49,432 bases of DNA from a bacterium (GTDB lineage: Bacteria; Patescibacteriota; Patescibacteriia; UBA1558; S5-K13). The stretch covers positions 1 to 49,432 of the forward strand of contig JAKPTO010000003.1 in NCBI GenBank assembly GCA_029555085.1, given 5' to 3'. The position numbers and the translations under genes are program-made. Below, piece after piece: positions 1,296-49,432 of this stretch; the first letter of the stretch is position 1; each line of letters opens with the position of its first letter. Below the pieces are notes generated by a model. That model searched no databases. It was not told the DNA's origin and saw only the letters and a program-made list of their open reading frames with translations.

Positions 1296-1560
1296 AACAT
1301 AGTCCCACACTGCTCCTTATATATATGCAAATAAAATCCGTATTCTGGGGACTAATGTCCGAACAATGTTCTTCCCGAGGAAGTAATATTCTCCTCATTG
1401 ATTGTTTGGATGACTCACAATTGGGATTTGGTCTACCCTTTTGACTCTCCAGGAAGGGAGTGACACGAGTATTGACTAACCGCAAGATTTCAATAGGTCT
1501 AGTAGCGACGAGCGAAAAACCCTGTACAAAAAACTTGAAAAAACTTGCGGTTTTTTCTTT
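1296..1560 (+). ncRNA. Putative structured RNA with a 23S-rRNA-like loop
   Basis: About 265 bases without a convincing gene but with many helices in one direction. AGTCCC 1301-1306 pairs with GGGACT 1348-1353. TCCGAACAAT 1358-1367 pairs with ATTGTTTGGA 1401-1410 (one G-U). ACTCTC 1444-1449 pairs with GGGAGT 1456-1461. AACCGCAAG 1478-1486 pairs with CTTGCGGTT 1544-1552 and is followed by a T-run, which gives the strand. Bases 1501-1516 (AGTAGCGACGAGCGAA) differ by one base from the conserved 23S rRNA domain I sequence AGTAGCGGCGAGCGAA. CCCGAGGAA (1374-1382) and CCGCAAGATT just upstream also resemble that domain. It could be a new RNA family or a decayed rRNA piece. It does not look like tmRNA, SRP RNA or 6S RNA to me. 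Confidence 0.5.
1544..1560 (+). terminator. Terminator arm closing the 1296-1560 RNA
   Basis: CTTGCGGTT at 1544-1552 runs into TTTTTTCTTTT. It pairs with AACCGCAAG at 1478-1486. The long loop means the helix may be both the 3' domain of the RNA and its terminator. Confidence 0.45.
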
Positions 1561-2989: not shown

Positions 2990-5767
2990 TTATTCATCTC
3001 TACCGCAACACTTTTTATATTTCTTTCCTGACCCGCAAGGACAAGGATCGTTTCTCCCAATTTTGGATCCATATTTTTTCACTTCTTTGTTTTTTAGTGT
3101 TGACACATTGTGCGACTGCTCATTTGAAGCCCCTTCTTGCGCCATAGATCTAGCTAAACTAAATTGTTTACTTTCTGTTGGATCATTTGTAACAACCGGG
3201 GTATTATTTTTTACTGAAGAAAGAATATTTATTGCTGGCATTACTTTGTAAATACTATAAACAACTTGTTTTTCAATATTATTTAAAAGCTCTACAAATA
3301 ATTGATATGTTTCTCTTTTGTATTCAACTAGTGGATCTGTTTGCGCATATCCACGGAGACCTATTCCTGTACGCAAATGATCAATATTATCTAAATGCTC
3401 AATCCACAAACTATCAATCGAGCGAAGTAAAATCCCCTTCTCAATCTCTCCTATTGGATTTTTTATATTTTCAATTCCTTCAATTTTTGAAATTCTGGTC
3501 TTTAATTCTTCGTATTTAATTTTTGCTAAATTTGAAAAATACTCTATTATGTTTGTTCGCTTTTGCGCTTCAGCTAATTTTTCATCCTTTTCATCTCTTT
3601 TCATTAATTCATTAAATTTTTCAATCTCTTCATCTGTTAATGGATAAATCGTTTTAACTGATTCGAAAATTTCATTTATATTCCAAACTGTTCCGTGATC
3701 ACTCGCTGTATGAAATGAAACAATTTCATTTATTTCAGTTTCAATCATTTCCATCACATAATCAGAGAGTGTTTCATAATTTTCAAATTTTTTCCCCTCT
3801 GACAACAATAGAATTCCTTTTCTTTTTTTATAAATTGTTTCACGCTGTTTGTTCATCACATCATCATACTCAACCAAATGCTTTCTCATATCAAAATTAT
3901 GCCCCTCAACATTCATTTGTGATTTTTCTATTGACTTTGAAACTAACTTATTTTCAATAGGTATGTCATCTGGAATTTTTAATGTATTCATAACGCTCTT
4001 TATCCTATCAGATCCAAAAATCCTCATTAGATCATCATCCATTGAAACATAAAAACATGAAAGTCCTGGATCTCCCTGACGACCACTGCGTCCTCTTAAC
4101 TGATTATCAATACGACGAGATTCATGCCTTTCTGTTCCAAGCACATATAGTCCGCCAACATCAACCACTTTTTTATACTCTGCTTCATTGTATGGACTAC
4201 CGCCTAAAATTATATCAACTCCACGACCAGCCATGTTTGTAGCAACTGTAACTGCTCCCACACGACCAGCCTGAGCAATTATTTCAGCTTCCTTCGCATG
4301 ATGCTTTGCATTTAAGATATTATGTGGAATTCCCTCCCTTTTTAAAAATTCTGATAATAGTTCATTTTTTTCAATTGAGATTGTGCCTATTAAAACTGGT
4401 TGTCCTTTTTCGTGTTTTTCTTTAACCTCGCGAACTATTGCTTGAAATTTGGCTTCTTCTGACTTGTAAATTTTATCATTTAAATCACGCCTTATCACTG
4501 GTTTATTTGTTGGAATTACATTTACCTCTAAATTATAAATTTTCATAAACTCCTCTGCTTCTGTTTGTGCAGTACCAGTCATACCAGCTAATTTTTCATA
4601 CATTCTAAAATAATTTTGAAAAGTGATAGTTGCGAGCGTTAAACTCTCTCTTTGAACATTTACTCCTTCTTTTGCTTCTATTGCCTGATGAAGCCCCTCT
4701 GAATATCTTCTTCCGGGCATAAGACGACCAGTAAATTCATCAACAATTACTACCTCTCCGTCTTTAACTATGTAATCTTTATCTCGTTTAAAAAGTAATC
4801 TTGCTTTAAGCGCTGCCTCCAAATGAAAAATTGAATTAAAGTCAGCATTTGCCCATGGATCAAATGCTAATTTATTTGCAATATAATTCTGCCCATCTTC
4901 CGTAAAAGTAACTGATCTCATTTTTTCATCAATATTATAATGAACATTTTCCTCAACATCACTCACAACACTTGCAAATTTTTTATACTTATCGGTTGAT
5001 TCAGCATCAGCAGAACTAATTATTAAAGGAGTTCTGGCCTCATCAATTAAAACACTATCAACTTCATCGATAATACAATAATAATATCCCCTCTGACATA
5101 ATTCAGAAGTTGATTGTTTCATATTGTCACGCAAATAATCAAAGCCGAATTCATTATTGGTTCCATAAACTATATCTGCTTTGTATGCTTCTTGTCTTGA
5201 AACAGGGCGAAGATAATCCTCAACAATTGTAATATTGTTTGGTTTTCCGTCTTCTGTTTGAATATGTGACGCATCGTAAACATAAGATGCTTCGTGTTCA
5301 ATTGCAGCAACGGTTAATCCCAAATAATCATAAATTTGCCCCATCCACACACAGTCTCTTTTTCCTAAATAATCATTTACTGTAACCAAATGAACTGGTT
5401 TTCCAGTTAGCGCATTTAAATAAAGCGGAAGCGTTGAAGAAAGAGTTTTACCTTCACCAGTTTTCATTTCAGAAATTCTTCCTTTGTGAAGTGTTATTCC
5501 AGAAATCAATTGAACATCATAGTGACGCTGATTTAATGTTCTTTTTGCAGCTTCTCTAACCATAGCAAAACACTCAGGCAAAATTTCATCAAGCGTTGTT
5601 TTGTTATTTTTTAAATCTTCTTGAAATTTTTTAGTTTTTGCGCGAAGTTCTTCTTTTGTTAATTTTTCTAAATCTTTTTCAAGCGAATTAATGGTTTCTA
5701 TAATTGGCGAAAGAGAATCAATATATTTTTGATTTGGATCTCCAAATATTTTTGAAAGTAGCGACAT
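2990..5767 (-). CDS. secA: Preprotein translocase ATPase SecA
   Basis: A 925-residue protein. It is the motor that drives unfolded preproteins through SecYEG at the inner face of the membrane. Walker A is MKTGEGKT (101-108), the DEAD-like Walker B region is IIDEVDSVLIDEAR, and motif VI is QLRGRSGRQGDPG. The preprotein cross-linking domain sits between the two nucleotide-binding folds. The C-terminus carries an intact SEC-C zinc motif (NDPCPCGSGKKYKKCC, about 908-923), the SecB/ribosome-binding tail. Length is normal for the family. It follows hpf by 62 bases and is probably co-transcribed from the promoter at 6165-6193. Confidence 0.97.
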   Translation of the reverse strand: MSLLSKIFGDPNQKYIDSLSPIIETINSLEKDLEKLTKEELRAKTKKFQEDLKNNKTTLDEILPECFAMVREAAKRTLNQRHYDVQLISGITLHKGRISEMKTGEGKTLSSTLPLYLNALTGKPVHLVTVNDYLGKRDCVWMGQIYDYLGLTVAAIEHEASYVYDASHIQTEDGKPNNITIVEDYLRPVSRQEAYKADIVYGTNNEFGFDYLRDNMKQSTSELCQRGYYYCIIDEVDSVLIDEARTPLIISSADAESTDKYKKFASVVSDVEENVHYNIDEKMRSVTFTEDGQNYIANKLAFDPWANADFNSIFHLEAALKARLLFKRDKDYIVKDGEVVIVDEFTGRLMPGRRYSEGLHQAIEAKEGVNVQRESLTLATITFQNYFRMYEKLAGMTGTAQTEAEEFMKIYNLEVNVIPTNKPVIRRDLNDKIYKSEEAKFQAIVREVKEKHEKGQPVLIGTISIEKNELLSEFLKREGIPHNILNAKHHAKEAEIIAQAGRVGAVTVATNMAGRGVDIILGGSPYNEAEYKKVVDVGGLYVLGTERHESRRIDNQLRGRSGRQGDPGLSCFYVSMDDDLMRIFGSDRIKSVMNTLKIPDDIPIENKLVSKSIEKSQMNVEGHNFDMRKHLVEYDDVMNKQRETIYKKRKGILLLSEGKKFENYETLSDYVMEMIETEINEIVSFHTASDHGTVWNINEIFESVKTIYPLTDEEIEKFNELMKRDEKDEKLAEAQKRTNIIEYFSNLAKIKYEELKTRISKIEGIENIKNPIGEIEKGILLRSIDSLWIEHLDNIDHLRTGIGLRGYAQTDPLVEYKRETYQLFVELLNNIEKQVVYSIYKVMPAINILSSVKNNTPVVTNDPTESKQFSLARSMAQEGASNEQSHNVSTLKNKEVKKYGSKIGRNDPCPCGSGKKYKKCCGRDE

Positions 5768-20114: not shown

Positions 20115-20190
20115 TGGAGCCGGGAACAGGAGTCGAACCTGCGATCTTTGGTTTACGATACCACTGCTTTGCCAACTAAGCTACCCCGGC
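20115..20190 (-). tRNA. tRNA-Thr(CGT)
   Basis: A full cloverleaf read on the minus strand. The acceptor stem is GCCGGGG/TCCCGGC with one G-U, the D arm is GCTT AGTTGGCA AAGC, the anticodon loop is ATCGTAA (anticodon CGT, reads ACG), and the T arm is GCAGG TTCGACT CCTGT. The discriminator is T and the CCA is encoded. The anticodon stem GTGGT/ACCAA has one mismatch at its outer pair. A CGT isoacceptor implies another Thr tRNA elsewhere. Confidence 0.93.
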
Positions 20191-34612: not shown

Positions 34613-34633
34613 AAACTAAATATAATAAATTTT

Positions 34634-35020
34634 GCTAAATTAGTTATAAGCCGAATTCTGTTTCCTCCAAAGGAGGCGATGATCATCTATCTTGTCTATT
34701 TATCACTAAATAGATCTAGCAACTTACCACTCCCGCGAATGGGATTTCTTAGTTTTGCACCGAATAGAGTTTACCTCTTCTCTATTGTCACCAATAGAGC
34801 GTCTGAGCTAATTATCTCAGAATTTCACCCTTAGATAATCAAATTAGTTAAGCTAATCAGATTATCAGGAATTTTTTCTGTTGCACTTGTCCTCTTTTAA
34901 AATCACTTTTAAAAGGGTTGCTGTTAGCAACTATTCCTAAGTTATAAAACTTAGCAAAATGGTGTTCGGACTTTCCTCGATAAACCATAATAGTCTATCG
35001 CGATCATCCACTAATCTAGC
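34634..35020 (-). ncRNA. rnpB: RNase P RNA
   Basis: Read on the minus strand. Near the 5' end is GAGGAAAGTCCGAACACC, the conserved P4/J region, and the 3' end has ACAGAATTCGGCTTAT, the universal P4 partner and end. Outer helix P1 is GCTAGATTAGT (35020-35010) with ACTAATTTAGC (34644-34634), one G-U. About 387 bases. This is the catalytic RNA that removes tRNA 5' leaders. The encoded protein partner rnpA is not in the window. No strong terminator is seen. Confidence 0.97.
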
Positions 35021-48005: not shown

Positions 48006-48014
48006 TTATCCACA
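48006..48014 (+). promoter_or_regulatory. DnaA-box-like TTATCCACA
   Basis: An exact 9-base consensus DnaA box just upstream of the 48023 promoter. A one-mismatch copy on the other strand is at 48773-48781. A single perfect box can arise by chance in AT-rich DNA (another lies inside murG near 9300), so this is noted without claiming an origin. Confidence 0.3.
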
Positions 48015-48022
48015 GCCTACTC

Positions 48023-48050
48023 TTGACAAATTTTACAGATATGATATACT
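48023..48050 (+). promoter_or_regulatory. Near-consensus extended -10 promoter of the 48-49 kb transcript
   Basis: TTGACA at 48023-48028 and TATACT at 48045-48050, with a 16-base spacer and TGA before the -10 (TGATATACT). The expected transcript start is near 48057. Confidence 0.8.
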
Positions 48051-48106
48051 CATCAATCAACATTAAGAATGCAATTTGAAAATTTATAAATATTTTGGAT
48101 CTGTAA

Positions 48107-48218
48107 AGGGCAGAATTATGCAGAAGAAAAGCGATAAATTAGCTATAAAAGAGCAAAAATATATAAAATGGCTCTATTTATAAAAGCGAACTATCTTTCT
48201 TCTACATAATTCTGCCCT
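48107..48218 (+). repeat. 112-nt inverted repeat / leader hairpin
   Basis: AGGGCAGAATTATG (48107-48120) pairs perfectly with CATAATTCTGCCCT (48205-48218). After a single mismatch, AGAAGAAA (48122-48129) pairs with TTTCTTCT (48196-48203), giving 22 of 23 bp. An inner stem AGAGC (48150-48154)/GCTCT (48171-48175) lies in the loop. It could be a MITE-like insertion or part of the RNA leader. Confidence 0.7.
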
Positions 48219-48251
48219 ATAAAAGGGTAAATAAGTAAAAAGGAGTTTATC

Positions 48252-48296
48252 ATGGACCCTCCTTACAAAAAAGACCGGCCTAAAAAACGCCGGTAA
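48252..48296 (+). CDS. Mini-ORF MDPPYKKDRPKKRR
   Basis: A 14-codon ORF with AAGGAG six bases before ATG. CTCCTT (48259-48265 area) inside the ORF can pair back onto the Shine-Dalgarno. Its last codons form the ACCGGC/GCCGGT hairpin (48274-48294) that includes the stop. The peptide is very basic at its end. A leader peptide or ribosome-docking signal is possible. Confidence 0.35.
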   Translation: MDPPYKKDRPKKRR

Positions 48297-48370
48297 CCCT
48301 AAAAAGGTACATCGTTAAAGAGAGTGGGGAATTTTTACCCACTCTCACAAAAAGCCAACAAACACCCCCC

Positions 48371-48990
48371 GGGAGGAACAATGTACTCAGGTTTTACCTA
48401 GCTAGAGCCCTCCCTAAAGGGCTCGATCCAAAATACAAAAAAACCGTAGTCACTCCGCATGGCAAGCTCGGACCCCAACATAAAAGCGTTCCGAGCAAAA
48501 TGCCCACACCGTTCGTGCCATTGCTGAAAACACAAAAGAACACGAACGATGTGCCTATATTATTGACTACGGAAATCCCCTCAATGGCTCATTGGGATGG
48601 ACCCCGGCTGGTTAATAATCACCCGGGCATATCATCCCCTAATCAGCGCCCTCCCTTTATAAGGGAACTCGCGCTACTCAATTCGCCATTGTGGGGAAAT
48701 TGAATGGGGCAACGAAAACAGCCCCAGATGAGCTAGTTCACATAAGCTCATTTCCTCCGCGGGGGAATCAACTGTGGATATGTGCACTGGAGTGGCCACC
48801 CGGTGCAAGAAAAAAAGTGCCATTAAAAATCTCAGCTCCTTTCTATGAGGCCCTCTTCTGCACAAGGACCCAAGGAGCTGAGACACCGATGGTAGAGGTG
48901 CTCTTTTTAGCGAAAAGCTGAAAACTGCCTGGTATGACATTATGAGGGAAATCCTCGGTCCAATGCCTAGCTAAATTGAGCCCTCTCCAC
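48371..48990 (+). ncRNA. Large, highly structured RNA of unknown class
   Basis: About 600 bases of markedly higher G+C (48601-48660 is 32/60, against 16/60 at 47041-47100) packed with perfect helices. These are GAGCCCT/AGGGCTC (48405-48411/48418-48424), CCGTAGTC/GACTACGG (48444-48451/48565-48572), GCTCGGA/TCCGAGC (48466-48472/48490-48496), and CACACCGTTCGTG/CACGAACGATGTG (48505-48517/48541-48553, one mismatch). Further on are AGCGC/GCGCT around TCCCTT/AAGGGA (48645-48675), GGGGC/GCCCC (48696-48700/48721-48725), ATGAGCT/AGCTCAT (48728-48734/48745-48751), GCACTGG/CCGGTGC (48784-48806) and CTCAGCTCCTT/AAGGAGCTGAG (48831-48841/48872-48882). The motif CCTAGCTA..GAGCCCTC occurs at both ends (48397 and 48966). 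I do not recognise tmRNA, rRNA, a group I/II intron, ROOL, GOLLD or OLE, although class membership cannot be excluded by eye. Confidence 0.7.
48381..48401 (+). CDS. Mini-ORF MYSGFT
   Basis: ATG at 48381 is preceded by GGGAGGAACA, a strong Shine-Dalgarno; the stop is at 48399-48401. GGGAGG can pair with CCTCCC at 48409-48414. It marks the 5' edge of the structured core. Confidence 0.3.
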   Translation: MYSGFT

Positions 48991-49015
48991 GGTTAAGTAA
49001 GAAAAAAAACTAAGT

Positions 49016-49080
49016 CCGGCACCCCACACACCTCTGATTCACAAGAATAAAAACTACTCATCGGGGTGCCGGCATCTTTT
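49016..49080 (+). terminator. GC-rich hairpin with TTTT, possible terminator
   Basis: CCGGCACCCC (49016-49025) pairs perfectly with GGGGTGCCGG (49063-49072) around a 37-base loop, and CATCTTTT follows. The loop is long and the T-run short, so it may be an RNA domain and not a terminator. Confidence 0.45.
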
Positions 49081-49094
49081 CAAAGGAGGAAAAG

Positions 49095-49115
49095 ATGAAT
49101 AAAAAAATTGATTAA
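49095..49115 (+). CDS. Mini-ORF MNKKID
   Basis: A 6-codon ORF with a very strong AAAGGAGG seven bases upstream; the stop is at 49113-49115. The terminator hairpin starts two bases after the stop, so a ribosome terminating here would cover it. This resembles an attenuation leader without a downstream gene. Confidence 0.35.
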   Translation: MNKKID

Positions 49116-49116
49116 T

Positions 49117-49167
49117 GCTCCGGTAAGATAAGGCGCAATGCTGATGCTACCGGAGCTCATATTTTTT
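49117..49167 (+). terminator. Terminator hairpin of the 48-49 kb transcript
   Basis: GCTCCGGTA (49117-49125) pairs perfectly with TACCGGAGC (49148-49156). Six Ts follow at 49162-49167. Confidence 0.65.
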
Positions 49168-49174
49168 ATAAATC

Positions 49175-49280: not shown

Positions 49281-49327
49281 TAATACAAAAAGCGTACTAT
49301 TCTAAATAAATATGCGACATAGAAAAT

Positions 49328-49335
49328 GATATAAT
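49328..49335 (+). promoter_or_regulatory. Extended -10 element of the transposase
   Basis: TGATATAAT ends at 49335, about 34 bases before the transposase ATG. No -35 box is recognised. Confidence 0.45.
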
Positions 49336-49368
49336 TGATATGCATATAACAATTAAATATCAAAATCT

Positions 49369-49432
49369 ATGTCACAATATGATTCTATCACAAAAATAAG
49401 GATTTGTTGGAGCCTTTATCAAAATAACATAC
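49369..49432 (+). mobile_element. 5' start of a transposase-like ORF, cut by window end
   Basis: The frame begins MSQYDSITKIRICWSLYQNN and runs off the window. KIRICWSLYQNN(I) looks like the helix-turn-helix start of IS481-type integrase/transposases (K-I-x-I-C-W-x-L-Y-x-x). Together with the 3' transposase end at 2-133, it suggests the window is bounded by copies of one IS, or that an assembly break fell in a repeated IS. Confidence 0.6.

Follow-up and report, generated by a model that had tools for sequence, protein, structure and literature searches.

Few classes of bacterial RNA are known that reach a comparable size and complexity, and for most of them the function has yet to be established. 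ROOL, which occurs in phages, prophages, and rumen-type bacteria, has roughly half the length of the ~1,110-nt unit analyzed here. GOLLD combines a conserved 3' region with a less conserved 5' region (PMC12286853). OLE (~600 nt) is well conserved and occurs mostly in Bacillota (PMC12054373).

In the present study, we analyzed a locus near the end of a 49,432-nt contig (the window) from the genome, G000, of an ultra-small, uncultured member of the Patescibacteria. The first-pass annotation had proposed a large, ornate RNA, its class unknown, beside the DNA-replication gene holB, and this is the best-supported reading of our results: no Rfam match was obtained, the reading frames are not conserved outside a short core, and the counterparts in related genomes keep a promoter, a 5' hairpin, and a terminator. 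We put a probability of roughly 0.82 on the locus encoding a large noncoding RNA (~1,110 nt) that is structured, is transcribed on its own, and founds a new family, so far confined to one Komeilibacteria (Patescibacteria) family. It likely represents a lineage-restricted, fast-evolving new class of giant bacterial RNA.

Limits and composition of the candidate transcript

The slot between holB and rnhA is occupied by units of the same orientation in three genomes: G000, G001 (same genus), and G002 (a second genus of the same family, Komeilibacteria). In the window, the candidate transcript spans ~48057-49169 on the + strand (~1,110 nt) and reads away from holB; its limits are set by a promoter, a 5' hairpin, and a terminator-like stem. 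The segment 48371-48990, to which the RNA had originally been assigned, is structured but too short, being the middle of this unit. The G+C-rich island described in the first-pass annotation was recovered, with a G+C content of 0.45-0.50 at 48250-49150 vs 0.22-0.30 in the flanks, and the A-T skew is positive on the + strand across the island (48.0-49.2 kb, contig end). The promoter reported upstream was likewise found, and the transcription start, as placed from it, would lie at ~48057. Of the terminators reported downstream, a terminator-like hairpin followed by a T run was located; it was read by eye, its loop exceeding the scanner's permitted length. Internal repeats (a CRISPR- or attC-like array) were sought in the unit, and none was found.

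A DnaA-box-like TTATCCACA is present 6-8 nt upstream of the -35 element of the RNA promoter in 3/3 genomes, inverted in G002, and one such site upstream of holB also occurs in G018 (L049). The 9-mer may equally serve the divergent holB promoter. A replication origin is not argued here, since the strand of the genes does not switch across the locus.

Table 1 Features of the large-RNA unit and its borders. Positions refer to the window unless another locus is named.
Feature	Position	Strand	Remarks
DnaA-box-like 9-mer TTATCCACA	48006-48014	+	just upstream of -35
DnaA-box-like 9-mers in relatives	G001 (L006) 3020-3028; G002 (L069) 1388-1396		beside RNA promoter
Sigma-70-type promoter TTGACA-N16-TATACT	48023-48050	+	11/12 consensus match; similar motif in G001, G002
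P1, long 5' hairpin	48107-48218	+	22 pairs, 14 and 8 bp on either side of a single C.A mismatch; counterparts in G001, G002
Mini-ORF MDPPYKKDRPKKRR-stop	48252-48296	+	behind AAGGAG
Central variable domain closed by GGTAC (48306-48310)/GTGCC (48817-48821)	48306-48821	+	predicted, P 0.54
Long-range helix CCCCCGGGAGGA with TCCTCCGCGGGGG	48366-48377 / 48753-48765	+	predicted, P 0.94-0.95
Mini-ORF MYSGFT-stop	48381-48401	+	strong Shine-Dalgarno
Subdomain closed by CCGTAGTCA/TGACTACGG, two hairpins inside	48444-48572	+	predicted, P 0.98
Subdomain closed by TCCCC/GGGGA and CAATGGC/GCCATTG, inner stems	48576-48697	+	predicted, P 0.97-1.0
Perfect 12-bp stem TCTCAGCTCCTT/AAGGAGCTGAGA	48830-48883	+	predicted fold
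3' conserved core, contains AGCGAAAAGCTGAAAACTGCC	48880-48996	+	alignment with G001
3' stem CCGGCACCCC/GGGGTGCCGG	49016-49072	+	equivalent stem in G001, changes on both sides
9-bp hairpin, AAAGGAG in loop	49073-49097	+	predicted fold
Mini-ORF MNKKID-stop	49095-49115	+	strong Shine-Dalgarno
Intrinsic-terminator-like hairpin GCTCCGGTA/TACCGGAGC then TCATATTTTTTA	49117-49169	+	stem 49117-49156, then six T (U6)

Fold stability and predicted helices

The minimum free energy (MFE) of the unit was -395.1 kcal/mol, compared with -270 +/- 8 in dinucleotide shuffles (z -14.9), and that of 48371-48990 alone was -228.6 vs -172.7 +/- 6.3 (z -8.8). Among 11 control windows of 620 nt, 10 gave z values from +1.3 to -4.2 on either strand, mostly between -2 and +1; the exceptional one overlaps the RNase P RNA (z -5.8/-5.4), which itself scored -6.4. 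The fold is thus far more stable than that of shuffled sequence, as in a structured RNA. The z values of the G001 and G002 units were -6.7 to -7.9 and -12.6, respectively. The predicted helices of at least 5 bp numbered 35 in the window unit, 24 in G001, and 39 in G002, and mean pairing probabilities of at least 0.8 were obtained for 32, 18, and 36 of them, respectively. The reverse strand of the unit is likewise strongly structured (z -7.5). We take the + strand as the sense strand because one-sided changes in helices mostly give G-U pairs on that strand, which also carries the promoter, the terminators, and A-rich hairpin loops.

The outer helix CCGTAGTC/GACTACGG (48444-48451/48565-48572) described in the first-pass annotation is predicted with 9 bp and a mean pairing probability of 0.98. 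The central variable domain is ~515 nt long in the window vs ~200 nt in G001. Its closing helix, GGTAC/GTGCC, keeps its pairing in G001 through two one-sided changes if so aligned, and it is absent from the G001 MFE structure. In the core, an H-type pseudoknot (GAGACACC/GGTGCTC with GGTAG/CTGCC, by eye) is possible; the alternative is an irregular nested helix that pairs 48885-48903 with ~48978-48993, and the G001 MFE structure pairs part of the core differently.

Counterparts and conservation in related genomes

G001, the sole other genome of the genus in the comparison, has a unit of ~780 nt in which the promoter, the 5' hairpin, the core, and the 3' stem recur, with a middle part that varies and a terminator of its own. 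The G002 unit (~1,390 nt) has a similar promoter, a 23-pair 5' hairpin, and a clean terminator of its own; the terminators of both relatives are U-tailed stems unlike that of the window. The P1 apex TGYAGAAGA/TCTTCTACA is common to the window and G002. Sequence comparison gave E 0.004 between G001 and G002 and nothing below 0.29 between the window and G002. The proposed homology of the G002 unit is based on position and layout, clear similarity ending at the promoter and the 5' hairpin.

Within the genus, only the ~120-nt 3' core and the 5' part can be aligned. The core (117-120 nt) showed a mean column identity of 90% with G001 (E 2e-29), and the body was hardly alignable. All 22 proposed core pairs (22/22) are kept between the window and G001, with two double and two one-sided changes; in this two-sequence comparison, core pairing did not exceed the shuffle control (133/500). 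In hand alignments, P1 showed 4 double changes against G002 with the hairpin kept, and the 3' stem was changed on both sides against G001 with the stem kept. Paired changes thus occur in three helices (the core hairpin, P1, and the 3' stem), in 2-3 sequences and without statistical covariation. Pairing maintained through such changes fits selection on the RNA fold, short of statistical proof.

A 46-nt stretch of the core (48890-48935) is identical in the window and G001 despite the unalignable bodies, suggesting a bound or catalytic surface. The RNA may accordingly be a ribonucleoprotein scaffold or a ribozyme, its protein partner being encoded at another locus, a possibility that we regard as doubtful, since no conserved partner gene adjoins the unit and the ribozyme models gave no similarity.

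In G003, the contig carrying holB ends at the slot, and rnhA lies on another contig, preceded by other genes. None of the remaining genomes examined in the order carries the RNA; most have rnhA close behind holB, and a few have different sequence in the holB-rnhA gap, which in several looks protein-coding. The core covariance model, applied to 31 genomes from the order and 381 from the class, detected G000 and G001 only, and the G002 unit, used as a DNA query against the order, phages, and plasmids, retrieved only itself. A family-wide contig search via holB gave no loci beyond G001 and G002, and no phage relatives of the RNA were found, including by viral-contig pattern searches. In the plasmid search, the window unit gave one 55-nt match (E 2e-3), to a Klebsiella plasmid, which was disregarded, and the G002 unit gave none. 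A DNA match in G355 (E 3.5e-7) lies inside a queA gene and was taken as chance; a short match at L003 falls where a methyltransferase-like gene starts, including its ribosome-binding site, and another in G031 covers 35 nt.

Several other elements were observed around the slot. In the genus, the interval from the large RNA to rnhA contains a second, separate small RNA candidate of ~150 nt (L094, G000:C25, 140-335; L006, G001, 3850-4045). It has a TTGACA promoter and a terminator-like end, its mean column identity is 79% between G000 and G001, and it had no Rfam match. The window contig apparently ends in one IS-element end (49313-49432). At the start of contig C25 of G000, on which rnhA lies, are the tail of an integrase-core transposase (rve_3) and the matching ATGTCGCAT (L094 1-149). 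An IS therefore probably lies between the large and the small RNA in G000. At the end of G003:C7 (L042 2610-2738), an apparent transposase tail was seen by eye at the holB-adjacent slot of a third genus, and this slot looks like an insertion hotspot. In G002, TCCAGAAGTCCT (L069 2685-2778) can pair either locally, in a hairpin with TTCTGGAC, or with the downstream AGGACTTCTGGA; these two mutually exclusive predicted folds are possibly a switch.

The unit could also be what is left of a mobile element or gene in decay, folding by chance: the slot is filled with other sequence in related genomes, divergence is fast, and IS ends adjoin the slot in G000 and, by eye, in G003. We consider this improbable, however, since the large RNA is single copy and without a transposase of its own, and the promoter, the 5' hairpin, and the highly stable fold are kept across genera.

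Reading frames and mini-ORFs

The overlapping ORFs had been described as lacking a recognizable domain, and no Pfam domain was found in the open frames. These frames reach 139 codons, and the longest ones modestly exceed those of shuffled sequence (P 0.04 for the window unit and P 0.013 for G001). Together with a 21-residue antisense match between the window and G001, their length is what favors one or more protein-coding genes in overlapping open frames. This explanation is nevertheless highly improbable: the match is the sole shared peptide and lies wholly inside the RNA core, which is nearly identical in both, the two units have their longest frames on opposite strands, and no frame is conserved between the genomes outside the core.

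The window unit contains three mini-ORFs with a Shine-Dalgarno (SD) sequence and ATG, against an expectation of 0.15 from letter shuffles (P 0.002, for a pattern found post hoc), and AAAGGAG is presented in a predicted hairpin loop. The RNA might thus engage ribosomes, its SD motifs and mini-ORFs titrating or regulating them. This is quite unlikely, given that such mini-ORFs are absent from G001 and that G002 has one unrelated example (MSIRGQP); moreover, a helix predicted with confidence sequesters the SD at 48371. Although not conserved, the mini-ORFs suggest that this species' RNA may contact ribosomes.

Comparison with known RNA classes

No Rfam 15 family reached its curated score at the window, G001, or G002 loci, in agreement with the unknown class assigned at first, and matches up to E 10 were sub-threshold noise. 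The GOLLD model gave no match at the gathering threshold or at E<=10 at the three loci, the ROOL, OLE, group I intron, and group II intron models were not matched there either, and ARAGORN found no tmRNA at the large-RNA locus. Like GOLLD, the RNA is very large and ornate, with a conserved 3' core (48880-48996) and a variable body, a likeness of layout only; GOLLD, however, occupies phage or prophage sites, often near tRNAs, whereas the large RNA here is chromosomal, in the holB-rnhA slot. Its neighbors are housekeeping genes, and the only tRNA of the window is at 20118. ROOL resembles it in being large, with many long stems and without an adjoining partner gene, but differs in its hosts and phages, its smaller size, and the lack of a model match at these loci. 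OLE is also a large, chromosomal, structured RNA, but it is shorter, well conserved, and mostly from Bacillota, and its model was not matched. The tmRNA and RNase P RNA are stable folded chromosomal RNAs as well, but both are encoded elsewhere in the genome, the former at G000:C5 58738-59128 (and in 4/4 family genomes) and the latter at 34631-35019 of the window. A literature search retrieved no paper on noncoding RNAs of large size or marked structure in Patescibacteria/CPR, which is not proof of absence.

The size of the RNA, its number of perfect stems, its A-rich loops, the lack of an adjoining conserved protein partner, and a conserved 3' part with a variable body, as in GOLLD (PMC12286853), would be compatible with self-assembly into a dimer or cage, by analogy with GOLLD, ROOL, and OLE. 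We judge this unlikely. The models of all three are unmatched, the locus lies among housekeeping genes and is neither prophage nor tRNA-adjacent, and no kissing loops (complementary hairpin loops of at least 5 nt) were found in the window unit or G001; the same screen in G002 gave one palindromic loop only.

Taken as a noncoding structured RNA gene, the locus would found a new family within the loose kind "large ornate bacterial RNA," in which its length, its fixed chromosomal location, and its speed of change are unusual.

Proposed function and significance

Both the transcription of the unit and its action as a folded RNA are predictions. In the mechanism that we propose, the conserved 3' core and 5' hairpin would hold a rapidly changing multi-branched body, and the RNA would be a scaffold, assembling with itself, proteins, or ribosomes, and not an antisense regulator or messenger. 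This is our leading guess, made by analogy and held at well under even odds. A scaffold-type RNA is favored over an mRNA-pairing regulator because the layout is GOLLD-like, with the identical 46-nt stretch and a freely changing middle. A bolder idea, which we hold with little confidence, is that a giant RNA class (0.8-1.4 kb) builds an RNA-only particle or catalytic machine in Patescibacteria with their minimal genomes, with nearly all of its sequence changing between neighboring genera.

If the noncoding RNA reading is true, these RNAs of 0.8-1.4 kb would be among the largest folded noncoding bacterial RNAs after rRNA. The retention of >1 kb of noncoding DNA in Patescibacteria genomes of ~1 Mb would argue for a real role. 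Because they diverge so strongly, RNAs of this kind would probably escape surveys that depend on homology, whereas gene position combined with fold stability can detect them.
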